From positions 372,001 to 436,000 of the forward strand of contig CAJXLB010000002.1 in assembly GCA_913055905.1 (NCBI GenBank): a stretch of DNA of 64,000 bases, given 5' to 3'. How positions within the stretch are numbered: the stretch's first letter is position 1; each line of letters opens with the position of its first letter. The translations under genes were made by a program, and so were the position numbers. Positions 945-13,005 of this stretch are shown here, piece by piece. Origin of the DNA: an uncultured Winogradskyella sp. (lineage in GTDB: Bacteria > Bacteroidota > Bacteroidia > Flavobacteriales > Flavobacteriaceae). A model generated the notes under the pieces. The model was not told the DNA's origin. It saw nothing but the letters and a program-made list of their open reading frames with translations, and made no database searches.

Positions 945-1724
945 TTAATACCACTTTAAAAGTGAAACTTCTATGGATGCATCTTCTTCTTCCACTAAAG
1001 ACTTAAACTTATTGACATCACTTAGACCTTCAGTTCCTCTGTAATGATAGGGGAATACTTGCTTTGGCTTGAAGTCCAAAACGGCACTAGCTGCACTCTC
1101 CACAGGCATGGTATACGGTAAGTTCATGCAAACAAAAGCTTTGTCTATGTTTTTTAGATTTCGCATCTCAGGAATATCTTCAGTATCTCCAGAAATATAA
1201 ACGCGCTCATCACCGAGCGTGAGTAAATAGCCGTTTCCCCTTCCTTTTTCATGAAATTTCAATGCTTCTTCTCGTAGATTATACATTGGAATTGCCTCAA
1301 TATTAATTCCTGAAACTGTCTTAACTTCTCCATTGGACATTACTGTTGGGCTGTCGTGAATCTCGCTTGGAATTTTGTCCACAACGGCTTGGGGCGCAAC
1401 CAATGGAATAGCCTTGATGTTAAGCGCTTCCAGTGTTTCGGTATTTAAGTGATCGCCATGAATGTCGGTGATTAAAACCAGTGTAGGTCTCTTTTGACCT
1501 TCAAATGCTTTGGTACCACCAACAGGGTCTACATAGATGACATTTTCACGATACTCTAAAACTAGCGTACCATGATTAATGGGAATAACCTTTACATTGG
1601 CATCAGTAGTTTCAACTGTTTTTTCAGTCTCTTCGGAATTGGTTGCTGTCTCTTTGGCTTCATTCTTACAGCTTGAAAAAAGCGTTAATACAACAAGTAG
1701 GGTAAATAGTTTGTAATTTTTCAT
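945..1724 (-). CDS. MBL-fold metallo-hydrolase, predicted lipoprotein
   Basis: About 259 residues when started at the Met directly before the signal peptide (MKNYKLFTLLVVLTLFSSC); an in-frame Met six codons upstream (1742) would put extra residues before it. The lipobox FSSC predicts diacylation and an envelope location. A low-complexity Thr/Glu linker follows, then a beta-lactamase-fold domain with DIHGDH, ISGDTED and YHYRG motifs, as in the UlaG-like branch. The first His of the classic HxHxDH metal motif is Asp here (TDIHGDH), a variant I recall as usual for this subfamily. Substrate unknown. Confidence 0.85.
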   Translation of the reverse strand: MKNYKLFTLLVVLTLFSSCKNEAKETATNSEETEKTVETTDANVKVIPINHGTLVLEYRENVIYVDPVGGTKAFEGQKRPTLVLITDIHGDHLNTETLEALNIKAIPLVAPQAVVDKIPSEIHDSPTVMSNGEVKTVSGINIEAIPMYNLREEALKFHEKGRGNGYLLTLGDERVYISGDTEDIPEMRNLKNIDKAFVCMNLPYTMPVESAASAVLDFKPKQVFPYHYRGTEGLSDVNKFKSLVEEEDASIEVSLLKWY

Positions 1725-1884
1725 AAGGTTAGTTTTAGTCAAAATTACTTAACTCTTTTCTGTATCGCGCAGTTGTAACATTTTTATAACATTTACTACC
1801 TATATTTTACAGGATAAATTTTTATTCTCATTTAAAAATACCGACATTGTATATCCATTTTTTTAAACTTTAACACCTTATCAT

Positions 1885-3225
1885 ATGTCCGAAGAATTTG
1901 ATTTGCTAGAGACCAACTCTAACGAAAAACCAGAAAAGGTTGATGTCAATTGGGGAAAAGCCATTGACCAAATGAAATCTAAATTGGCCCAGGAAGACGA
2001 CCCGGAAAGTCGACAGAAAATACTAAATGCAACTTTAGATAGTGTCGTAGAAATGGCAGAAAAAGACCGTTCTACGCTATTAGATGCCATTAAGGATTTA
2101 ACGGACTATCAAGACGAAGTGGGAATCATGTTCGAAGGTTTTTCTGCTTTAAACGAAGAAGAACAAAAAGTTATAAATGATGCCGTAAAACGTTTAGAGC
2201 GTGCCAAAGTCGAACTGGAAGATGCTCAAAATAAACCGGATACTTGGTGGAATAATCTCTGGGGCCGTAAGTCTAAAATAAAGCGTGCCGAAGATGAGTT
2301 AAAAGCAGCCCAAAAAGAACGCGATTCAGCTGACAATAGAGCCAAAGCTATGTTTCAACAGCGCATTGAGAATGCAGACGTGCAAACCTTGCTCAACGAG
2401 CTGTCCTTTAAGAGCCAAGCGGCCATTAAACGTTTAAAGGACCGTGAGCTCGAAATAAAGGAAGTTGAGGAAAACCTTAAAACGGCTATTGTTGAGGCTA
2501 GTAACAACCATACAAAGGCTCTTGAGAAAAAGGCAGAGGTAGAATCTCAATTAGAAGAGCAGTATGCACTCCTAAAGCAAGCAAGGCAAGCACTGGATGA
2601 AGTAGCAGATAAACAGTCTACGGAATATTCAGAGGCCTTAGAGCGCGTAACGAAATTAGAGCAAAAGGTTGAGGAGCTAGAAGGACTTAAAAATGCTTAT
2701 ACCACACTAGCGGCTTCTAAAGATAGCTTTGTACACAAGCACAACCTTACCATTAAAGTACTAACATCACTTAGAAGTAATCTGCAAACGCATAGGGCAA
2801 AGCTTAAAAGTGATACGGATGAAAGATTGAAATATTACGATGGCTATGTTGTGGCACTAAAAGCACGTACAGATCAAGAATTTGCAGCTATTTTAGAGCA
2901 CTTAGGAGTGAAAACCGATGAGCACATTGGTGAGACCCTTGCGGCAATGCACACGGCTAGTGCCAAGGCAAGACAGGAAATGATGGATAACATTCCGGTG
3001 CACGAAAAAGTGATGCAAGGTGTTTACAGCAGTTATGCAGAAGCGCTTAAGGAAATTAGAAATAAGGATGGCGAGATTCAAAAGAATTTTGCCGATCGCT
3101 ACGGAATAGATATGAAGGAAATCTTTGATGCCTATTACAATGCTGAAGAAACCGCACCAGATGGTAATGATGCAGAAGTACCTTCAAAGAAATCTGAACC
3201 CAAAGAAGACGACTTACTCTCGTAA
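1885..3225 (+). CDS. Long coiled-coil protein, first gene of an uncharacterised seven-gene operon
   Basis: A 446-residue, highly charged and almost entirely helical protein with no signal peptide or membrane span, so probably cytosolic. Heptad-like coiled coil runs from roughly residue 75 to 115 and again from about 130 to 290, separated by a Pro-containing turn with a Trp-rich patch (TWWNNLWGRK, around residues 118-128). The C-terminal third is helical and ends in an acidic, Lys-rich disordered tail. The family is not recognised with certainty; weak similarity in style to TelA/PspA-type coiled-coil proteins is inference only. It is followed after 67 bp by another gene on the same strand and probably co-transcribed with six downstream genes. 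It may form the filament or scaffold worked on by the AAA ATPase two genes on. Confidence 0.85.
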   Translation: MSEEFDLLETNSNEKPEKVDVNWGKAIDQMKSKLAQEDDPESRQKILNATLDSVVEMAEKDRSTLLDAIKDLTDYQDEVGIMFEGFSALNEEEQKVINDAVKRLERAKVELEDAQNKPDTWWNNLWGRKSKIKRAEDELKAAQKERDSADNRAKAMFQQRIENADVQTLLNELSFKSQAAIKRLKDRELEIKEVEENLKTAIVEASNNHTKALEKKAEVESQLEEQYALLKQARQALDEVADKQSTEYSEALERVTKLEQKVEELEGLKNAYTTLAASKDSFVHKHNLTIKVLTSLRSNLQTHRAKLKSDTDERLKYYDGYVVALKARTDQEFAAILEHLGVKTDEHIGETLAAMHTASAKARQEMMDNIPVHEKVMQGVYSSYAEALKEIRNKDGEIQKNFADRYGIDMKEIFDAYYNAEETAPDGNDAEVPSKKSEPKEDDLLS

Positions 3226-3292
3226 CAGCTAATATTAAAATTCAATTTAGGCTCTACCATGAATAGTTTCATCGGATAAAGCATCGATATCA

Positions 3293-4330
3293 ATGATTGT
3301 AACACCATTAGATTCAGCAGTATTAGACTCTAAGGAACAATATGTGTTCTATCACAGAATGATAGATTTTACACTTAAGGAGCTCGTGGTGGCAGTACAA
3401 GCAAATGGGCTCTGTAACTCTCAAGAAGTGCAATTATTTAAACAGTATTGTGATTTGTTGCTCTATTCCATTGAGGCTATGCGTGTAAAATACATGTATG
3501 ATGATGAGGAAAACATGAAAGTAGACCTTACAGATTCTGGCTTCCCAAATTACCTGGAGTTTCGATATTTGTTCAATGATTTGGGTCTACGAGAAGAGTT
3601 TCTGGGAAAGCTAACACCTATTGCTGATTTAAAAGCTGAATTTTTAGATACATTAATGCGACAGAAACAGCCTATCTCTAAGCGAAAGTTATTTCAAGCG
3701 GCTTCGATTGTATATTATTCTTCGGCAAAGAAGGAATATATCTTTAATAGGTTTGTTCAAGGTAAAATATTAAGAAATCCTGAAGGTAATGAAGGTGATT
3801 ATTTAGTGAGTTGGAGTTTTTACGATGTTACGCATAATAGACCTTTTATGTGCTTTATGTATTTCAATTATAATGGCTCAGAGGTAATGGATTATAAGGA
3901 CCAAATTTATAAGGTGCTAAAGAATGTAGCCGACAGGGATATGAATTTAGACACGATGGCCTATGCCATTGATAAAAGGTTGCCAAAATTGCTTCCAAAG
4001 CGCATAAAACGTGTCGATTTAGGGCCAATTCACAATGTATTTGCAAAAGACAAGAATGAGATGACCCACGCCATTTTAGAAGGTATAGCCAAAAAAACCA
4101 TATCAATTGAGGCTTTTGCCATATCGCTTAAAATAGATGAGTTAAACTCTGAAAGTGAATTCAAGGAAGGTGGAATTTTTAACAAGCAAACCTTTCAGAA
4201 ATGGGATAAGGTTTTTAAGCAAACCTACATATTGGCGCCACATAGAATCATCCAACTTCTTTACAACAAAACACCGGAGTTAATCCATACATTGACACAA
4301 CCACCTATAGAAGTGGCTGGACTAAAATAA
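3293..4330 (+). CDS. Uncharacterised soluble protein of the AAA-ATPase operon
   Basis: 345 residues with no signal peptide or transmembrane helix. The N-terminal half is helical (YHRMIDFTLKEL), the middle has a beta-rich, aromatic stretch (SWSFYDVTHNRPF, FMYFNYNG at about 180-205), and the last third is mixed with a conserved-looking RVDLGPIHNVF segment. I do not recognise the family and see no catalytic motif. It sits between the coiled-coil gene and the AAA ATPase gene (67 and 61 bp gaps), so an adaptor or regulatory role for the ATPase is the simplest inference. Confidence 0.8.
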   Translation: MIVTPLDSAVLDSKEQYVFYHRMIDFTLKELVVAVQANGLCNSQEVQLFKQYCDLLLYSIEAMRVKYMYDDEENMKVDLTDSGFPNYLEFRYLFNDLGLREEFLGKLTPIADLKAEFLDTLMRQKQPISKRKLFQAASIVYYSSAKKEYIFNRFVQGKILRNPEGNEGDYLVSWSFYDVTHNRPFMCFMYFNYNGSEVMDYKDQIYKVLKNVADRDMNLDTMAYAIDKRLPKLLPKRIKRVDLGPIHNVFAKDKNEMTHAILEGIAKKTISIEAFAISLKIDELNSESEFKEGGIFNKQTFQKWDKVFKQTYILAPHRIIQLLYNKTPELIHTLTQPPIEVAGLK

Positions 4331-4391
4331 ACCTTACCGAAAAATGGTTTTGACCAAATAAGGATGGATTAAGATTAACAACACTAAGCAC

Positions 4392-6359
4392 ATGGAACAT
4401 AATTCTACATTTCCAATTAAACAAAAAGAACTAGACATGCTTAGGGACGAAGCTTCGTCCTACCTTAAGTCGGTACAATGGGAACAGTCACAAAGGGCTA
4501 AATCTAAGAGTAATGACAATAAGGATGAGTCTATTTTGTTGTTCTTGTCTAGAGCCAACAACGGAACTAATGTCACATCGACCTCTGTTTCTAAAACCAT
4601 TTTGGCCCTTAAAAAGAAACTTTTACCTGAGTCCATAGCCATACCTATTCATTTAAATCAAGCCTTATTTGCAGTGCAAGAAGGCATTGTTTTAGGGCAA
4701 TGGATTAAAGATAATTACTACGACTCGTCCGGCTTATCAACCCTTGCAGAAAATAAAGCTGCTTTGGACCAAAAGGAAAGACGAGAGTACGACAGTAAAA
4801 TGCAAACCGCAACGGCATACATGCTCTTTGCTACCGCCTACAAAATAGTGCACGATTTAATGCCTTACGCCTCCGATGATTTAACCGTGATGAAGCACAA
4901 ATTTGCAGGTATACCTGAGGTGGCTTTGCTTACACCGGTTAAAGGCATGTCTTGTCAATTATTTTATTACGATAAATATTTGAGCCATCCTGAAATTATC
5001 CATTCAGATAAAGATGTGGTGGATTTCACCATGGTTTATTTTCAAGCCTTGATAGATGAAATTCAACTTCGTAAAAGTGCTTTGGAATATACCGAGACCA
5101 TTCTGGATAGAACGTATAAATTAGAGCATTCGGATTTTGCAATTTCTGGTTGGGAAAATGTATTTCAAGGAACGGCCAAAAGTGTCGAATTCAATAAAGT
5201 TAAGTTTGAAGAAATTGTAGGGAATAAGGATGCAAAACACTTTGCCAGAAGACTAACAGAACGAATCTTAAGCTATGACTTCCAAGCACAGAAAAACCCA
5301 TTTCAAGAATTGGGAGGATTTATGCCTGTTTTTATGGGTTACGGAATTCCTGGCACAGGTAAGAGTATGCTTATTGCAGCTATAGCGACGCGTTTAAAGG
5401 AGTATACAGATCAATTGGAAATCCCATTTTTGTTTCATCCAATGCCAGACACCTTAATATCAACCTTTCAAGGTGGCTCGGCAGAAAAAATGGTAGAATG
5501 GATGAAACCCTTGCAAGATCCAACTCGACTGATTTTTGCACCTATTGACGATGCAGAGAACAACTTGCAAGAACGCACGGCGCAAGGAGTTTCAGCTGGT
5601 GTAAAGGAAGTAATTGGTGTGTTCTTGAGATATACTGAAGGTGCCTATGCCATAAACTATGGCAATAGTGCAATAGGTCTTTTTACCAACTTGCCCGAGA
5701 TGTTGGATAAAGCCGTTATTTCTAGAGTACAAGGTCGGTTTAAAATAGATGGTGCACGCACAGCAAATGATTTCTTGGATCAGGATTATTTATGGTGGCG
5801 AAAGTTTGAAAAAACACTGCCACAATTTGTAAATATGAATGGACCGGAGAATTATGACTATTTACAAGACCAAGGCTTGGCAAAATCCTTGGGAGAGATT
5901 TTAAAGGCGGTCGAGAAACCATCAGAAGATCGCGTAAATGAAATATTTGAGAAAGTAGAGCAGGCACATGGGCACCAGAACCATATGTTCTATGCCAATC
6001 TGTACAAAGAAATACAGGCTGTCTTTCCATTTTTCTCGTCTAGGGACGTGAGAAATATTCAATCGGCTATTTCACTACGATTGACGGATTTTGACCTTGA
6101 AGATGACTGGTTTGACAATCCGGAATTATATTTTAAAAAGGATTACGACACCAAGTTGAATATGCTAAAGGAACTTATGAAGGCTAACATGAAAGGACTC
6201 AATTTTTCTGATATTCGCCGTCAAGAAGTTATTCGCTACTTGGATAATGTTGCAACTATTGCCGATACGGATTTTAAACGCAAGGTAGACCAACGTATCA
6301 AACAAATGAATATAGAATTAGAAGCTCGAGAGCAATTTAACAACGGTTCAAATTCATGA
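4392..6359 (+). CDS. Classic AAA family ATPase with a long helical N-terminal domain
   Basis: 655 residues. The first ~290 residues are helical with no known domain. The ATPase module has Walker A GIPGTGKS at residues 318-325, an unusual Walker B stretch IFAPIDDAE at about 381-389 (DD rather than the standard DE), a sensor-1 region LFTNLPEMLD, and an arginine-finger-like SRVQGRF. The TN...LD.A..R..GRF pattern is that of classic AAA proteins (FtsH/Vps4/katanin type). A further ~190-residue helical C-terminal region follows. No membrane span. The stop overlaps the start of the Nudix gene (ATGA), indicating translational coupling. Probably the motor of the cluster. Confidence 0.88.
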   Translation: MEHNSTFPIKQKELDMLRDEASSYLKSVQWEQSQRAKSKSNDNKDESILLFLSRANNGTNVTSTSVSKTILALKKKLLPESIAIPIHLNQALFAVQEGIVLGQWIKDNYYDSSGLSTLAENKAALDQKERREYDSKMQTATAYMLFATAYKIVHDLMPYASDDLTVMKHKFAGIPEVALLTPVKGMSCQLFYYDKYLSHPEIIHSDKDVVDFTMVYFQALIDEIQLRKSALEYTETILDRTYKLEHSDFAISGWENVFQGTAKSVEFNKVKFEEIVGNKDAKHFARRLTERILSYDFQAQKNPFQELGGFMPVFMGYGIPGTGKSMLIAAIATRLKEYTDQLEIPFLFHPMPDTLISTFQGGSAEKMVEWMKPLQDPTRLIFAPIDDAENNLQERTAQGVSAGVKEVIGVFLRYTEGAYAINYGNSAIGLFTNLPEMLDKAVISRVQGRFKIDGARTANDFLDQDYLWWRKFEKTLPQFVNMNGPENYDYLQDQGLAKSLGEILKAVEKPSEDRVNEIFEKVEQAHGHQNHMFYANLYKEIQAVFPFFSSRDVRNIQSAISLRLTDFDLEDDWFDNPELYFKKDYDTKLNMLKELMKANMKGLNFSDIRRQEVIRYLDNVATIADTDFKRKVDQRIKQMNIELEAREQFNNGSNS

Positions 6360-6937
6360 AGAAAATAAAAGATATTGAACCAATTACCTTGTCGAGTGCT
6401 TGGGCAACCTTAAAACGAATAGATTTCGATTATAGGTTTAAGAATGGGCAGTGGAAGCGCTTATCAAGAGAAACCTACGATAGAGGAGATGGTGCTGCAA
6501 TCTTACTCTATAATACTCAAAAGCAATCTGTAATTTTAACGAAGCAATTTCGTATGCCCATTTATGTGAATGCACCTTCAGAATCTTATTCTATCGAGGT
6601 GTGTGCTGGTGCTATCGATAACAACGAAGATCCCTTAGAAACTATATTGCGTGAAGTTGAAGAAGAGACAGGTTATCGCATAAAATCTGCACAGCAAGTA
6701 TTAGCTGCCTACACATCACCTGGAGCGTTGACTGAAAAGATGTTTCTTTTTGTTGCTGAGTATCATGATGACCTTAAGAAAAGCAGTGGTGGAGGCTGTG
6801 AAGATGAAAACGAAGAACTAGAAGTTATTGAGTTATCATTTGAAGATGCCATGACTATGATAAAAGAAGGGAGCATAAGGGATGCAAAGACGATTATGCT
6901 GCTGCAATATGCCAAAATCGAAAAGTTATTTGAATAA
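6356..6937 (+). CDS. Nudix hydrolase, NudK (GDP-mannose pyrophosphatase)-like
   Basis: 193 residues. A complete Nudix box is present: G-x5-E-x7-REVEEETGY at about residues 82-105. The N-terminal half (opening near TLSSAWATLKR, then QFRMPIY) matches the NudK/ADP-ribose-pyrophosphatase branch, which hydrolyses sugar nucleotides such as GDP-mannose or ADP-ribose to the sugar phosphate and a nucleotide. All Nudix residues are intact, so an active enzyme is expected. It overlaps the AAA ATPase gene by 4 bp and precedes the next gene by 13 bp, so it is an integral member of the operon and not a chance neighbour. Confidence 0.9.
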   Translation: MKKIKDIEPITLSSAWATLKRIDFDYRFKNGQWKRLSRETYDRGDGAAILLYNTQKQSVILTKQFRMPIYVNAPSESYSIEVCAGAIDNNEDPLETILREVEEETGYRIKSAQQVLAAYTSPGALTEKMFLFVAEYHDDLKKSSGGGCEDENEELEVIELSFEDAMTMIKEGSIRDAKTIMLLQYAKIEKLFE

Positions 6938-6950
6938 TTATTATTTATAA

Positions 6951-8186
6951 ATGGACAAACTCAAGCAGGCCAACTTGTATCGTAGCGACCTCATTTCTGT
7001 AGGTGGTAAGCTCGTAGAGCGGTATAACAAGTGTTTAGAAACGCTTGGTTTCCCAAGAACTAAATTAACCTCATTTTCTATAGATGGAATGGGTTGGAGC
7101 CCAGAAGTAGCAGAAGAGCGAAAAGATATGCACTATCTAAACCATGGCGATGCCAATCCGCACGGCATTATTATCTCTCCATTGCAAAAGGGAAAACCGG
7201 TTTATTTGCCTTTTCATTCTTTTGATAAGGAAATGATGCAACACATTTTTAGAACGCATGGACGTAAAATAAATGACATTACTAGGGATTCTGCTATTTG
7301 TATAGATTTTGACCAAGATATTGATGTCTTTTACGAACCTCTGGATATTTTAAAGTATAAAGATGTAAGTATAACATTTAGATTGATTGATAATTTAGAA
7401 GAAAAGCAAAAGCAGCAGCAGCTATTAATTGATAAATTCAATCATGGTAATAATTTCATTGACGAAGATATTCACCAAGAACTTCTAGAATCGGCAAAGA
7501 CCTTTGGTGATCTGAGAAATCGCGATTTAACCTTGCATTCCATCCACTACTCAACAAAATCATTTTTTACCAGAGCCTTTAATGGTGTTTATCTCTTAAG
7601 GGATTTTATCAAACCTATCGTGGTTTTTGAAGATTTAAAATATTACAAGGAAGCCATAAAAGACACCATCCACGATGTATTAATCTATCATATTTCTCAA
7701 CCGGAACTCATCGAAAAACTAAAAAGTCATCTCATAATTGAGTGCGATTTAGATCGTATTGTAAATACACCAATTTACGACCGCGTTAAAAAGTTTATGT
7801 TGTATTCCGTTTTGGAAAATCCTGAGCATCCAATAAGAGACATCCTTAATAACAAGGTATTGCTAAAGAGCTATCTTAATAAAATAGAGGTGTCAAAACG
7901 TAAAAAAGTAATGGGTGTAGAGCTTTACTTGGAACGATTGGCGAGAAGCAATGCCTATAAGTTGGAAGATATGGTGGATGAGTCTTTTTATTTTGCCTTA
8001 CACCAGCCACATTCCTCATTAATGCCAGATCAACGGGATTTAATTCATAAGTTGCTTATAAACATTGCACCAAAGGATGTTTTATTCTTGTATTGGTATG
8101 ATAAAGAACAGTTTTACAAAAACTACGAGACTTGGGACGATTCGTTTCGGGAATGGGTAATAGAGCAGATTAGTAACAATATTTAA
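6951..8186 (+). CDS. Uncharacterised conserved soluble protein of the AAA-ATPase operon
   Basis: 411 residues, no signal peptide and no membrane span. The N-terminal ~100 residues contain WSPEVAEE and NHGDANPHGIIISP; the remainder is mostly helical with many charged residues. I recall a family of this length in Bacteroidota carrying only a DUF number (possibly DUF6638) but cannot verify it. No catalytic motif is seen. It lies 13 bp after the Nudix gene and 39 bp before a membrane-protein gene. Confidence 0.78.
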   Translation: MDKLKQANLYRSDLISVGGKLVERYNKCLETLGFPRTKLTSFSIDGMGWSPEVAEERKDMHYLNHGDANPHGIIISPLQKGKPVYLPFHSFDKEMMQHIFRTHGRKINDITRDSAICIDFDQDIDVFYEPLDILKYKDVSITFRLIDNLEEKQKQQQLLIDKFNHGNNFIDEDIHQELLESAKTFGDLRNRDLTLHSIHYSTKSFFTRAFNGVYLLRDFIKPIVVFEDLKYYKEAIKDTIHDVLIYHISQPELIEKLKSHLIIECDLDRIVNTPIYDRVKKFMLYSVLENPEHPIRDILNNKVLLKSYLNKIEVSKRKKVMGVELYLERLARSNAYKLEDMVDESFYFALHQPHSSLMPDQRDLIHKLLINIAPKDVLFLYWYDKEQFYKNYETWDDSFREWVIEQISNNI

Positions 8187-8225
8187 CTTTAATAGACTAA
8201 CTTTATAAGAAACTAAGTAGCAATC

Positions 8226-8768
8226 ATGGGCATAGAATTGGTTATTTTTTTAGTGGCAATATTATTTGGGGTTTTCTTGTACTGGAGAGAATCTAATGGT
8301 AATGGCGCCTATCGTTTCTTAAACAAAATCGTGAATAGTAAAGAACTTCAAATGAGTCCAGATAATCCTAAAGGCTTTGTTTACAAACAGGCTTTTATTC
8401 CAAGATTGATTTTTGTGGTAGCCCTGGTTCTGGTTGCTGCACTCATTTTAGAGTTTTTAACACCAATTTCTGTGTTTGCCAGCTATAACGGTGTGTCTGC
8501 TTTTGCATCCTTTGCCGTTGGAGCGCTATTAGGTACGTATCTAGCGAGTTTTGTTATTAAAACAAGTGAGGTTGTTGAAGAAAAGAGTGGTAGCATAGGA
8601 GACTTAGTTGAAGACGCGGTTGATAAAGGAAAAGATTTTCTAGACGATTTAAAGAATTCAGATAATAAATCTGTTGAAAGAGCCAAGGAAGAAATTGAAC
8701 CTAGGCCTTCCTCAGAGCAAGATAAGAAAAGTGCTCGTGAGCGTCTCAAAGACAAAGGCTTAATGTAA
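8226..8768 (+). CDS. Small membrane protein with charged C-terminal tail (AAA-ATPase operon)
   Basis: 180 residues. One membrane helix at about residues 3-19, a ~30-residue loop, then two more hydrophobic segments around 53-76 and 85-110. The last ~65 residues are hydrophilic and charged (many Asp, Glu, Lys), presumably cytosolic and possibly a docking tail for the soluble partners encoded upstream. No recognised domain. An antisense ORF covering the same bases is rejected. The next gene follows after 18 bp. Confidence 0.78.
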   Translation: MGIELVIFLVAILFGVFLYWRESNGNGAYRFLNKIVNSKELQMSPDNPKGFVYKQAFIPRLIFVVALVLVAALILEFLTPISVFASYNGVSAFASFAVGALLGTYLASFVIKTSEVVEEKSGSIGDLVEDAVDKGKDFLDDLKNSDNKSVERAKEEIEPRPSSEQDKKSARERLKDKGLM

Positions 8769-8786
8769 TATGCTCGAATAAAATAT

Positions 8787-10481
8787 ATGATAAAAAGGTA
8801 TTGGAATAAAGGTAAGCGACAAAAGCGAACAACCATATTAGCGGCTTTGGGCCTCCTTTTGGTGTTGTTCTTTTTTAGGTATGATTATCAACCAGCGCTA
8901 TTGTTTCTCAGAAAATTCTTTTTCGTAATTGCTGTTAGCACCATTTTTCTTGTGTTAGGACTGAGACGATTCAGAAGAACACCTAGTACAGGAAAACGAT
9001 TGGGAATATTAGGTATGCTAATCGCTTTTTTTGGCTTTTTATATTGGGTTGGTTGGCATTTGCAACTTTATGATTATATGAAAACCTACAACGTTTTTAA
9101 CGATTTGAATAAAGTTGAAATTAACGAATTACCATTGACCCAGAATGAGCGCATTCAACCTTTAAGAAATATATTTTCTATGGCCAATGAAAGTGTTGGT
9201 GAGACCAAGGATGTTTCACTGCCGCATTTGGTAAGAATTGACCGAGAAAATAAGTGGACTATGGCTATTCAGCCTAGTGAAAAATATATCATGCAGCGCA
9301 TTAGCGATAATACGGAAGAAGTTTTTTCCGTAAGCAGTACAACTCCCTTTCCAAGATTCTCTAATGAAAATCGAATTCCTGTGGTGTTTTCTATAGGTGA
9401 ATCTCTAAAATTTAGCCGAAACACATACAATGCAGTGGTTCAGCGTTTTAATCCATGGATGCTTTTTAACTATGAGCCTAGTGATACGTTTTACATGAAG
9501 AATGATAATGGTGAGTGGGTTCAGGTTGTAAGCCTTATAAAATGGAAAGGATTCTTTTTTCCTTATCCCACTTTTGGTGGTGTTATGATTATTGAAAACG
9601 GACCTCACGATTTTAAAGATTACCTGGAACGGGTTTTGATTGGTAAGGGTACTTTTGTGAGTCCAGAGGATATTAAGAATTATCCATTTTTAACCAAGCA
9701 AAACACATTATCCGAGAAAGTATCTCAATTACAGGCAGAATCCCTTAAATTCCTTGGAGGTTTTAGTGATCCCTTACCATGGAATATGGAAACTGCCGTT
9801 AAAATACCTGCGATGCCAAAAGATCAAAACCAGCAGCCTTATGTCACAGATTTTGATTTTTCCGGAACTAATACAAATGCTTACAGTGGGCTTTACCATT
9901 GGTTTGGTTTAGAACCCGTAGGCGAGGAGCGCACTAGCTTGAGCTTTAGTGTTTTTGTCCCTGCTGATGGAAGTAAGGTCTTATATTATTATGACCATGC
10001 ATCAAAAAAGCAGGGTTACGCAGGCGTATCGGCAATGCCTTTAAAGGTTAAGGAGTCTAGAAAAGAATATGATTGGGAAGCTAACTCTCCTGTAGAGTTT
10101 AGGCCTTATATAAAGGATATAGCAGGCCGTAAGCGCATGTTTTTCTTAGGAACCGTTTCTACAATTAGTAGAACCAATGCACAACAATTTGATGGTTCTG
10201 CAACACCAGACTTAGTCCTAATTGATAGTGAATACAGAGATGTGATTTGGATTGATGTAAAGCACCCTAGCCAATGGGATAAAACCGTTTATGACCAATT
10301 AAACGAAGCCTGGCGTGCCAGTGAAGGCATAGGTTATTACTATCAAGAAGAACCTAAAGACCCAGACCTAAGGAGTAGAATTACAGATTCATTAAAGTCA
10401 GTTCCAAACCAAGATGATAAATCAAAAATGATAGAAACGCTTCAGCGTAAGCTAGATTCACTTAAATCGCTTGAAAATTAA
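8787..10481 (+). CDS. Membrane protein with large extramembrane domain, last gene of the AAA-ATPase operon
   Basis: 564 residues. A basic N-terminus is followed by three hydrophobic helices at about residues 17-35, 42-60 and 72-92, then a ~450-residue hydrophilic, beta-rich region with many aromatic residues (FFFPYPTFGG, YHWFGLEP, FSVFVPADGS). The tail is helical and charged (KSLEN end). With three spans and a positive N-terminus the large domain would face the periplasm, but this topology is inference. No family recognised. It ends the seven-gene run; about 150 bp separate it from the carbonic anhydrase gene. Confidence 0.8.
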   Translation: MIKRYWNKGKRQKRTTILAALGLLLVLFFFRYDYQPALLFLRKFFFVIAVSTIFLVLGLRRFRRTPSTGKRLGILGMLIAFFGFLYWVGWHLQLYDYMKTYNVFNDLNKVEINELPLTQNERIQPLRNIFSMANESVGETKDVSLPHLVRIDRENKWTMAIQPSEKYIMQRISDNTEEVFSVSSTTPFPRFSNENRIPVVFSIGESLKFSRNTYNAVVQRFNPWMLFNYEPSDTFYMKNDNGEWVQVVSLIKWKGFFFPYPTFGGVMIIENGPHDFKDYLERVLIGKGTFVSPEDIKNYPFLTKQNTLSEKVSQLQAESLKFLGGFSDPLPWNMETAVKIPAMPKDQNQQPYVTDFDFSGTNTNAYSGLYHWFGLEPVGEERTSLSFSVFVPADGSKVLYYYDHASKKQGYAGVSAMPLKVKESRKEYDWEANSPVEFRPYIKDIAGRKRMFFLGTVSTISRTNAQQFDGSATPDLVLIDSEYRDVIWIDVKHPSQWDKTVYDQLNEAWRASEGIGYYYQEEPKDPDLRSRITDSLKSVPNQDDKSKMIETLQRKLDSLKSLEN

Positions 10482-10633
10482 AATGCGTTCTACGAATTAG
10501 TTCATTCTAGACAAAGCACTTACAATCTTAAAATTGCGTTAAATTTTAGTTTTGACTTTTCAAATAATTTGATTTCCAAGCAATGGGCGTTATTTTTAGT
10601 CAGCTATTAACAACTTTAAAACACTCAGATACC

Positions 10634-11323
10634 ATGGCTAAACATTCAAAATTAACGTATTCACCAGACAAAGGAAGCGATATTGAGATAAGACCGCTTG
10701 TAGAAAAAGTTTTAACTGCAGAGGAACAAGCAAAACTCACACCAGACGATGTCATTAAAAGCTTAAAAGAAGGTAATCAAAGGTTTGTCAACAATGATTT
10801 AACGGCTAGAGACCATACAGCTCAAATAAGAAAAGCCACAAACGGACAGTATCCTAAAGCTGTTGTGCTGTCTTGTTTAGATAGTAGAATTCCGGTTGAG
10901 GATGTTTTTGATAAAGGTATTGGAGATTTATTTGTGGCACGCGTCGCAGGTAACTTTGTAAATGAAGATATTTTGGGTAGTATGGAATTTGGATGCAAAG
11001 TCGCAGGCTCTAAATTAATTTTGGTTCTTGGTCACGAGCACTGTGGTGCTGTAAAGGCAGCGGTTGATGATGTAAAGCTCGGTAATATCACTGCCATGCT
11101 CACTAAAATTAGACCTGTTGTAGAAGAATTAAGTGACTATGAAGGTGATAAATCCTCTAAAAACCCTGAATTTGTTCATATGGTATGCGAGCAAAATGTG
11201 AAGAAGACGATTCAAGACATTAGAAACAACAGTCCTATTTTGAAGGAAATGGAAGATAATGGTGAGATCAAAATCATCGGAGGGGTTTATGACATGGACA
11301 CCGGAGAGGTAGAATTCTTATAA
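10634..11323 (+). CDS. Beta-class carbonic anhydrase
   Basis: About 229 residues from the Met of MAKHSKL; an in-frame ATG 17 codons upstream (10583) gives an N-terminal extension without signal-peptide character, so I prefer the inner start. Zinc ligands are visible in CLDSRIP (Cys, Asp-Arg pair) and GHEHCGAVK (His and Cys). The enzyme interconverts CO2 and bicarbonate. A SulP transporter gene follows after 26 bp, an arrangement known for coupled bicarbonate transport and hydration. Confidence 0.93.
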   Translation: MAKHSKLTYSPDKGSDIEIRPLVEKVLTAEEQAKLTPDDVIKSLKEGNQRFVNNDLTARDHTAQIRKATNGQYPKAVVLSCLDSRIPVEDVFDKGIGDLFVARVAGNFVNEDILGSMEFGCKVAGSKLILVLGHEHCGAVKAAVDDVKLGNITAMLTKIRPVVEELSDYEGDKSSKNPEFVHMVCEQNVKKTIQDIRNNSPILKEMEDNGEIKIIGGVYDMDTGEVEFL

Positions 11324-11349
11324 TCTTCATAACTCTCTAAATTTATTTT

Positions 11350-13005
11350 ATGGTGACTAAATTTTATGATCTCAAATACTTAAAGGGAGATCTTACAGGA
11401 GGACTTGTAGCTGGTGTGGTGGCACTTCCCTTGGCACTAGCATTTGGTGTTCAATCTGGGTTAGGTGCAATTGCTGGTTTATATGGTGCAATTGCGGTAG
11501 GAATATTTGCAGCAATTTTTGGTGGTACAGCTACTCAAGCTAGTGGTCCTACTGGCCCAATGACCGTGGTATCAGCTGCTTTAGTGGCGAGCGCTGTAGA
11601 AATGACAGGAAGTTTAGAAAGTGCCATGGCAATTATCGTGGCCACCTTTTTATTAGGAGGACTATTTCAGATTGTTTTTGGTCTTATCAATATTGCAGGA
11701 TATGTTAAATATTTTCCATACCCAGTGGTTTCTGGGTTTATGAGTGGTGTAGGCCTTATAATAGTTATTCTCCAAATTTTTCCTTTCGTTGGGTTGACAT
11801 CGGCCAAATCCACTTGGTTGGTAATGCAAGATTTACCAAGGCTCTTTTCTGAGTTTAACTGGCAAGCCCTTGCCTTGGGAGGCTTAACTGTGCTCATTTA
11901 TTATGTATTCCCATACATTACTAAGGTTATACCAAGTGCCTTGGTAGCCTTGATAATTGCTACCCTTGTTGGCTATTTCCTTAGTTGGGATGTTCCTATA
12001 ATCGGAGAAATACCATCTGGTTTACCAAGCTTGCAATTAGACGGCATTTTTTCTATAGATTCAAGTGCTTTTATTCTAATCGGTGAATATGCCACCATCC
12101 TAGCTGTTCTTGGCTCTATTGATTCGTTACTCACATCTGTTATAGCAGACAATATGACGAAGACAAAACACAACAGTAATCGTGAACTTATTGGACAAGG
12201 TATAGGTAACGCAATTGCAGCGATTTTCGGCGGTATTCCTGGCGCTGGTGCCACAAAAGGTACAGTTGTTAATATCAATTCTGGTGGTAGAACGCGTGTC
12301 TCAGGTACTATCCATGGTCTTGTTCTTTTAGCTGTTTTATTAGGATTAGGAAAATTGGCAGGGTATATTCCTTTATCTGTTTTAGCTGGTTTGCTTATTC
12401 CAATCGGATTTAAAATTGTAGATACTAAAGGTTTAAAACACCTATTAAGAGTGCCCAGAGCGGATGCAATAGTTTTGATCATTGTTTTACTTATGACCAC
12501 CTTTGGTAGCCTTATCCAAGCAGTAGGCGTTGGTTTGTTATTGGCATCCCTTTTGTTTATGAAGCGTTCTAGCGATATTAGTGAAGAAGGTCTTAACGTT
12601 GGAACATTAGCCGGTTTTGATGGTGAAAAACCATGGCAAGACGAAAAAGAATTCTATGAGGCCTATAAGGACAAAGTGTATATTAAACATCTGTACGGAC
12701 CTTTATTTTTTGGCTTTACCTCTCATTTTCAAGATGAAATAAAGAATATTCCTGATGATGTAAAAGCGCTTATCATTAGGATGGACAGAGTTCCATATAT
12801 AGATCAATCAGGTCTTTATGCTTTAGAGAATGCTGTTTTGGATTTGGAGAAAAGAGGTATAAAAGTTGTCCTTACATGTGTGCAACAGCAGCCCTTGGAT
12901 AAATTGATTTCCATAGATATTGTGCCGGATTTAATTCCGAAAACACAAATTTTTGATTCCATTGATGAAAGTTTTGCCTATTTAAAATCTGAGTTTAAAA
13001 TCTAA
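11350..13005 (+). CDS. SulP family anion (sulfate/bicarbonate) transporter with STAS domain
   Basis: 551 residues. The first ~410 are a multi-span transporter core with the SulP opening LKGDLTGGLVAGVVALPLALAFG and the GPTGPMTVV segment. The C-terminal ~110 residues form a STAS domain, recognisable by the phosphorylation-type loop RMDRVPYIDQSGLYAL. Adjacent carbonic anhydrase makes bicarbonate the most likely substrate, as in BicA-like systems, though sulfate cannot be excluded from sequence. The stop is only 5 bp from the convergent hutG gene with no clear hairpin between them. Confidence 0.92.
   Translation: MVTKFYDLKYLKGDLTGGLVAGVVALPLALAFGVQSGLGAIAGLYGAIAVGIFAAIFGGTATQASGPTGPMTVVSAALVASAVEMTGSLESAMAIIVATFLLGGLFQIVFGLINIAGYVKYFPYPVVSGFMSGVGLIIVILQIFPFVGLTSAKSTWLVMQDLPRLFSEFNWQALALGGLTVLIYYVFPYITKVIPSALVALIIATLVGYFLSWDVPIIGEIPSGLPSLQLDGIFSIDSSAFILIGEYATILAVLGSIDSLLTSVIADNMTKTKHNSNRELIGQGIGNAIAAIFGGIPGAGATKGTVVNINSGGRTRVSGTIHGLVLLAVLLGLGKLAGYIPLSVLAGLLIPIGFKIVDTKGLKHLLRVPRADAIVLIIVLLMTTFGSLIQAVGVGLLLASLLFMKRSSDISEEGLNVGTLAGFDGEKPWQDEKEFYEAYKDKVYIKHLYGPLFFGFTSHFQDEIKNIPDDVKALIIRMDRVPYIDQSGLYALENAVLDLEKRGIKVVLTCVQQQPLDKLISIDIVPDLIPKTQIFDSIDESFAYLKSEFKI

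Follow-up and report, generated by a model that had tools for sequence, protein, structure and literature searches.

A conserved AAA ATPase operon of Flavobacteriaceae and Proteobacteria with a putative slot for exchangeable genes

Introduction

Modular systems such as Zorya are built from a fixed membrane-linked core, long coiled-coil elements, and type-specific partner genes or exchangeable effector genes. The IetAS anti-phage system consists of an AAA protein and a protease, and in some type I restriction operons accessory conflict genes are embedded between the core genes. Here we describe a seven-gene operon at positions 1885-10481 (+ strand) of a window of 64,000 nucleotides, the whole stretch of DNA that was analysed, from contig CAJXLB010000002.1 of an uncultured Winogradskyella sp. 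of the Flavobacteriaceae (assembly GCA_913055905.1), a genome of 2.95 Mb. The operon encodes, in order, a long coiled-coil protein (g1), a soluble mixed α/β protein (g2), an AAA ATPase (g3), a Nudix hydrolase (gene 4), a DUF6638 protein (g5), and two membrane proteins (g6 and g7). It appears to be undescribed as a system. The main finding, which the reader who prepared the first-pass annotation from this stretch alone could not see, concerns gene slots: comparison of related loci indicates that the AAA/DUF6638 junction, and in Roseobacter-type loci also the g1/g2 junction, is a slot for unrelated genes on the operon strand.

How does the operon compare with these systems and with others built around an AAA protein? 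Zorya (PMC11890865) is an example of a modular anti-phage system, and like Zorya-type systems the operon combines a fixed core with swapped genes. Unlike Zorya, its core has no ZorA or ZorB match and holds an AAA ATPase and a DUF6638 protein instead, the swapped gene lies inside the operon between two core genes, and a role in defence is putative. As in the Vps4/ESCRT-III and PspA/Vipp1 systems, an AAA ATPase is encoded with coiled-coil and membrane proteins, but g1 has no ESCRT-III match or convincing PspA/Vipp1 similarity, and we know of no counterpart of g2, DUF6638 or the slot in either system. Polymer remodelling of the ESCRT-III or PspA kind, to which the first-pass annotation had pointed, was not borne out by a profile search of g1 against the PDB, in which PspA/Vipp1 appeared only at E values of 1.9-3.9 and ESCRT-III did not appear. 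The g3 protein resembles IetAS in matching the IetA model weakly (1.8e-5), but the match is confined to the AAA domain and there is no protease among the operon core proteins. Like the type I restriction operons, the locus has accessory genes between core genes of one operon, but it has no restriction core, and many of the embedded genes encode small membrane proteins. The core matched no characterised system in our searches, in agreement with the earlier statement that no system could be named for it, and full-text literature searches returned no paper on the operon among the matches listed.

A conserved operon with variable slots

Two sets of loci were compared: 61 loci of the window's family, comprising the window and 60 others picked from 114 AAA-bearing genomes of that family, and the best 80 of 559 relatives from a scan of named genomes. 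The second set leans to Proteobacteria because a Vibrio protein stood first among the queries of that scan, and by their titles we take its members to be Alphaproteobacteria, save one Psychromonas and one Halomonas. The six genes other than the Nudix gene are complete in 59 of the 61 family loci, and all 59 have them in the same order and on the same strand; locus L051 lacks g1 and g2, and L052 lacks DUF6638, g6 and g7. This arrangement of six genes is far beyond chance, and the operon is real. Its seven + strand open reading frames (ORFs) are separated by 67, 61, -4, 13, 39 and 18 bp, exactly as first reported. The core also recurs in Alpha- and Gammaproteobacteria. The four core genes are complete in 75 of the 80 proteobacterial loci, and all 75 have them on a single strand in the order g1-g2-AAA-DUF6638. 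Of the five remaining loci, three (L060, L083 and L085) are short contigs; no DUF6638 was recognised in L065, and in L135 only the AAA gene was.

Gaps of more than 250 bp separate AAA from DUF6638 in 61 of 76 proteobacterial loci and g1 from g2 in 45 of 78, with the corresponding counts being 8 of 79 for g2/g3 and 6 of 72 for the gap downstream of DUF6638. Among the loci of the window's family, 46 of 59 have an AAA/DUF6638 gap above this length, and at the other four junctions such gaps occur in 17, 15, 15 and 5 of 59; in the window itself this slot spans 6360..6950 (+), from the AAA stop to the DUF6638 start. The large AAA/DUF6638 slots contain an ORF longer than 99% of shuffles on the operon strand in 32 of 61 cases and on the opposite strand in 3 of 61, and the large g1/g2 gaps do so in 18 of 45 and 0 of 45, respectively. 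Overlaps of 4 bp are common at both ends of the 32 clear slot ORFs: the start lies at -4 relative to the AAA stop in 12, and the stop lies at -4 relative to the DUF6638 start in 16. In the g1/g2 slots, 9 of 18 ORFs likewise have their start at -4. Start sites in the slots of the window's family are ambiguous, as the first start codon was taken there. In 17 Ruegeria-type loci the common sequence stops at or near the AAA stop and resumes at the DUF6638 start codon.

Turnover of slot content was followed in pairs of related loci. Where the AAA proteins share 85% identity or more, all 196 pairs have homologous g1, g2 and g5, and the membrane genes are homologous in 195 of 195; the content of the AAA/DUF6638 slot is homologous in 29 of 187 and that of the g1/g2 gap in 32 of 162, with the downstream flank homologous in 171 of 195 and the upstream flank in 116 of 195. 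A closer set, with AAA proteins at least 94% identical, comprises 23 loci and 137 pairs, of which one was dropped (it aligned as a single block) and 136 were left. An unaligned segment of more than 150 bp is found in the AAA/DUF6638 slot in all 136 of these pairs, at g1/g2 in 128 and elsewhere in the core in 31, and a translated search detects no relation between the two slot contents in 124. No pair has an unaligned segment of more than 150 bp between aligned blocks of the downstream flank, where, past the membrane genes, an average of 5.8 kb aligns of the 6.5 kb available.

Slot cargo

What do the slots encode? We listed 101 slot ORFs and scanned 89 of them for families, the 12 omitted being mostly likely wrong-frame ORFs; the tally covers the commonest 25 of 30 families. 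Among the 89 are eight NUDIX members, four ParE, three DUF559, three SnoaL-like, two Mrr, two HTH_3, two RHH, two signal peptidase and one AbiJ_NTD4, among others, and further matches include below-cut-off HNH, one DUF2971 and weak HEPN. Against PADLOC, two of the slot proteins hit type IV restriction models and several hit candidate defence models. Small membrane proteins are strongly enriched: by hydropathy, 23 of the 26 slot ORFs of at most 165 residues (both slots) are membrane proteins, compared with 10 of 104 conserved flanking genes. The G+C content of the slots is on average 8 points below that of the AAA gene. Of 110 related cargo pairs, 108 show less nonsynonymous than synonymous change, so these ORFs encode real proteins; the two pairs with the opposite relation are taken for wrong-frame ORFs.

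One cargo family, with membrane and coiled-coil character and seven slot members, gave 15 matches in 374 Roseovarius-family genomes at an E value of 1e-10, of which 13 lie between AAA and DUF6638 (12 of 14 without one query genome); the two weakest matches have no core gene within 1.5 kb on either side. A second cargo query, of 98 residues, had no match in 100 genomes and is uninformative. A mobile origin was considered for one cargo protein and rejected, since plasmid records gave no match and, among phages, two records of a single phage matched in part. The window's family has more conservative cargo, the Nudix gene being present in 38 of 59 loci and the others being unrelated. Thirteen ORFs of that family resembling bAvd/23S-IVP proteins (L040:12098-12457 and 12 similar ones) lie at g2/g3 (seven) or g5/g6 (six), and proteins labelled by eye as GIY-YIG-like also lie mostly at junctions other than AAA/DUF6638.

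The Nudix gene of this genome (6356..6937, +; 193 residues) has an ATG that overlaps the AAA stop codon, 4 bp being common to both genes. Its description as NudK-like was apt at the level of the family: the protein scores 157.2 bits against the TIGR00052 cut-off of 79.55, which places it in the NudK-type YffH/AdpP family, and 179.3 bits against NF011585, below the cut-off of 234 for the NudK equivalog. Could the Nudix protein be the catalytic heart of a nucleotide-sugar or ADP-ribose unit, to which the AAA and coiled-coil proteins deliver substrate? Its place in the slot of 38 of the 59 complete family loci would fit, as would the fact that in its own genome it matches itself alone at an E value of 0.001, but 21 of the 59 complete family operons have no Nudix gene, and the eight NUDIX members among the 89 scanned slot ORFs all come from loci of the window's family, with none among the proteobacterial slot genes scanned, so that such a unit is improbable. 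The Nudix gene is an occupant of the exchangeable slot and not part of the core. The first-pass view of the operon thus holds for one conserved AAA unit with coiled-coil and membrane partners, and was not supported for the Nudix gene as a fixed member.

Possible function of the operon

We find the balance about level on the reading that the operon encodes a machine powered by ATP, whose core is fixed and whose accessory genes can be exchanged, and which may be a conflict system. In such a machine the AAA ring, using ATP, would remodel or pull on a target near the inner membrane, the target being presented by the coiled-coil g1, g2 and DUF6638. The slot protein, produced in concert with the core, would serve as an exchangeable effector or as a subunit that sets specificity. 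Members of the YffH/AdpP Nudix family cleave nucleotide-sugar or ADP-ribose-like substrates, and in this genome the Nudix slot subunit would cleave a substrate of that kind. Conflict with phages or competitors appears to be the likeliest role, to judge from the rapid turnover and from cargo that includes nuclease, toxin-antitoxin, AbiJ-like and small membrane proteins. The operon may, more tentatively, represent a new class of modular conflict system, in which the core would detect an intruder or damage to the envelope and then drive any one of many dedicated, interchangeable effectors. It is possible, though we would not lean on it, that these effectors are the Nudix, nuclease, AbiJ-like and small membrane proteins and that they are swapped with exact ends; a similarly guarded proposal places the swapping at the AAA/DUF6638 junction and, for Roseobacter-type loci, at g1/g2 as well.

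A number of observations weigh against a modular conflict system. The pairs used to measure turnover are not independent, since they have loci in common (23 in the 94% set) and many of these are Ruegeria; among the 136 close pairs, slot content is related in 12 by translated search, less than half of the downstream flank aligns in 16, and an unaligned segment lies upstream of g1 in 127. Of the 61 large slots, 29 lack an ORF longer than 99% of shuffles. The AAA/DUF6638 slot measures at most 60 bp in 10 of 76 proteobacterial loci and at most 250 bp in 13 of 59 family loci. Empty or short slots, which include those of the Vibrio, Psychromonas and Halomonas loci, show that cargo is not needed in every case. 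Dedication to the slot is shown for one cargo family, the commonest cargo of the window's family is one stable Nudix, and other cargo there (amidohydrolase, signal peptidase) looks metabolic. No core protein gives a specific match to a defence model of PADLOC, the matches there being weak ones to AAA domain, coiled-coil and Nudix, and the structural model of g1, which might point to the substrate of the AAA protein, is poor.

The operon could instead be viewed as a housekeeping or stress machine of the envelope, in which the AAA ring takes apart an assembly of coiled-coil protein at the inner membrane, g6/g7 (or DUF1523/DUF2333) form the membrane anchor, and the slot is no more than a tolerated insertion point in a well expressed operon; we consider this rather unlikely. 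It would accord with the membrane genes found behind DUF6638 in the window's family, in Roseobacter-type loci and in rhizobia, with the stable downstream synteny of close loci, with the mixed and partly metabolic cargo of the window's family, and with the common carriage of the AAA gene (114 of 397 and 45 of 100 genomes). However, neutral insertion does not predict the 4-bp overlaps at both ends of the slot, the constraint on the cargo, a cargo family almost confined to the slot, or the strong enrichment of small membrane proteins. Even as a housekeeping machine it would be an AAA system shared across phyla, one protein of which folds confidently and matches no solved structure. If, on the other hand, the slot proteins are subunits of the machine, the related loci amount to a natural swap experiment, in which near-identical ATPase cores are combined with different partners; this would offer a direct way to learn the function of the core and would give access to many small membrane effectors that have yet to be characterised.

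The core proteins

Pfam, NCBIfam, PADLOC and PHROGs name only the AAA, Nudix and DUF6638 proteins, the remaining genes having no convincing family. The AAA assignment of g3 (4392..6359, +; 655 residues) made at first sight is upheld by PF00004 (1.7e-8; 35.4 bits against a cut-off of 21.2), and the best PDB sequence matches are VCP- and Vps4-like AAA domains. In an alignment of eight rows across phyla, seven of the nine residues of Walker A (GYGIPGTGK, residues 316-324; 5337..5363, +) are invariant (G316, G318, P320, G321, T322, G323 and K324) and are followed by S or T. Walker B of classic AAA proteins ends in DE, whereas the acidic pair of g3 is D386-D387 (5547..5552, +) in eight of eight rows, with Asp replacing Glu. 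Also invariant are N433, D439, R445 and R449, in a candidate second region of homology whose spacing is 1-2 residues longer than in the classic motif with its two arginines; R445 and R449 mark a candidate arginine-finger region (5724..5738, +), a role that we assume from classic AAA proteins.

The g1 protein (1885..3225, +; 446 residues) has no hydrophobic segment in a hydropathy scan, and it has cross-phylum relatives. Its predicted model is poor, with long helices and a predicted local distance difference test (pLDDT) score of 64, and Foldseek searches with this model gave generic coiled-coil matches only, the best (E value 8.5e-3) being to a chemoreceptor complex model. Like the TelA (KlaB, YaaN) toxic anion resistance family, g1 is helical and of similar length, which raises the question of whether the operon might be a distant TelA/Ter-type system for envelope or metal stress with g1 as the TelA relative. 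Such a relationship is disfavoured and, in our estimate, highly improbable: the resemblance is one of size and helical coiled-coil character only, and g1 has no PF05816 match or detectable homology to TelA, the window genome has no TelA family match, and there is no AAA gene among the immediate neighbours of TelA (200 bp flank). Comparison by hhalign was negative against one TelA sequence and against five, the alignment of 44 g1 sequences giving a probability of 0.2% with the five-sequence TelA alignment, and g1 was rejected as a TelA relative.

For g2 (3293..4330, +; 345 residues; no Pfam family) the predicted model is confident, with a pLDDT of 89.1 and a predicted template modelling (pTM) score of 0.86, and it has nine strands among helices, which corrects the first description of g2 as a helical protein. 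A comparison of the model with the PDB found no fold match (best E value 0.11). Against a viral fold library the matches were weak, many of them to levivirus maturation proteins, with probabilities of at most 0.2 and TM scores below 0.2 in the rows shown, and given these scores the levivirus-type likeness was taken as chance. Gene g5 (6951..8186, +; 411 residues) had been called an unknown; it has no assigned function but does belong to a Pfam family, DUF6638 (PF20343; 1.9e-31, 109.9 bits against a cut-off of 27), which is matched by 44 of 44 members of the DUF6638 alignment, the window included. A full-text search of one paper library returned no paper naming DUF6638, and a search of the PDB for solved relatives of g1, g2, DUF6638 and g7 found none that was convincing.

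Membrane partners, distribution and neighbouring genes

The two genes downstream of DUF6638 are lineage partners of the core. The small protein g6 (8226..8768, +; 180 residues) and g7 (8787..10481, +; 564 residues) each have three hydrophobic segments in a hydropathy scan, those of g7 being N-terminal and accompanied by a large, highly conserved domain, which agrees with the initial account of two membrane proteins, one of them with a large domain. In Roseobacter-type loci DUF6638 is followed by an 88-residue protein with two hydrophobic segments (60 of 80 loci) and by DUF1523 (63 of 80), and in rhizobial loci by DUF2333 relatives (10 of 80); in the Vibrio locus mfd follows DUF6638, and no membrane gene was recognised in the run of module genes. 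The membrane side of the operon, judged from these gene neighbourhoods, is lineage-specific: common, not universal. The 88-residue protein/DUF1523 pair is located at L061:14152-15089, with equivalents in L060-L139, and g6 is similar in layout by eye. The Vibrio mfd gene lies at L037:15130-18591, and an ORF of the same size is found in Psychromonas (L063:13358-16831).

Of 397 genomes in the window's family, 114, with its own genome included, have the AAA protein at an E value of 1e-20. In a sample of the phylum it was present in 5 of 395 genomes and DUF6638 in 3 of 198, all of them within the window's family. The AAA protein was also found in 20 of 299 genomes of a Pseudomonadota sample and in 45 of 100 genomes of the Roseovarius atlanticus family, the centre genome being included in each case. 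Relatives of the AAA protein occur on 10 plasmid records (Vibrio and rhizobia), and phage records gave no AAA match; a phage or plasmid origin of the AAA gene was rejected on these grounds, all of the plasmid records being predicted non-mobilizable.

A scan for sigma-70-like promoters and terminators gave no more sites than shuffled sequence. A divergent gene adjoins the operon at 945-1742 (-), with an HGDH motif of the metallo-beta-lactamase kind recognised by eye, and 4 of 20 family loci have a relative of it within the stretch. Downstream, at 10583-13005, are a carbonic-anhydrase-like gene and a SulP-like transporter (names by eye), which we place outside the conserved operon because they have no relative within 20 family loci. 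Upstream of g1, Ruegeria-type loci (L089-L133) have a variable region outside the operon in which genes of ~500 and ~750 residues recur, and the variability there looks like the gain and loss of a few recurring genes. Several rhizobial-type loci, 7 among the 80 loci of the second set, have a thymidine kinase gene upstream of the module, and S. meliloti has one as well (L062, L073, L102, L108, L116, L123, L138 and L038).

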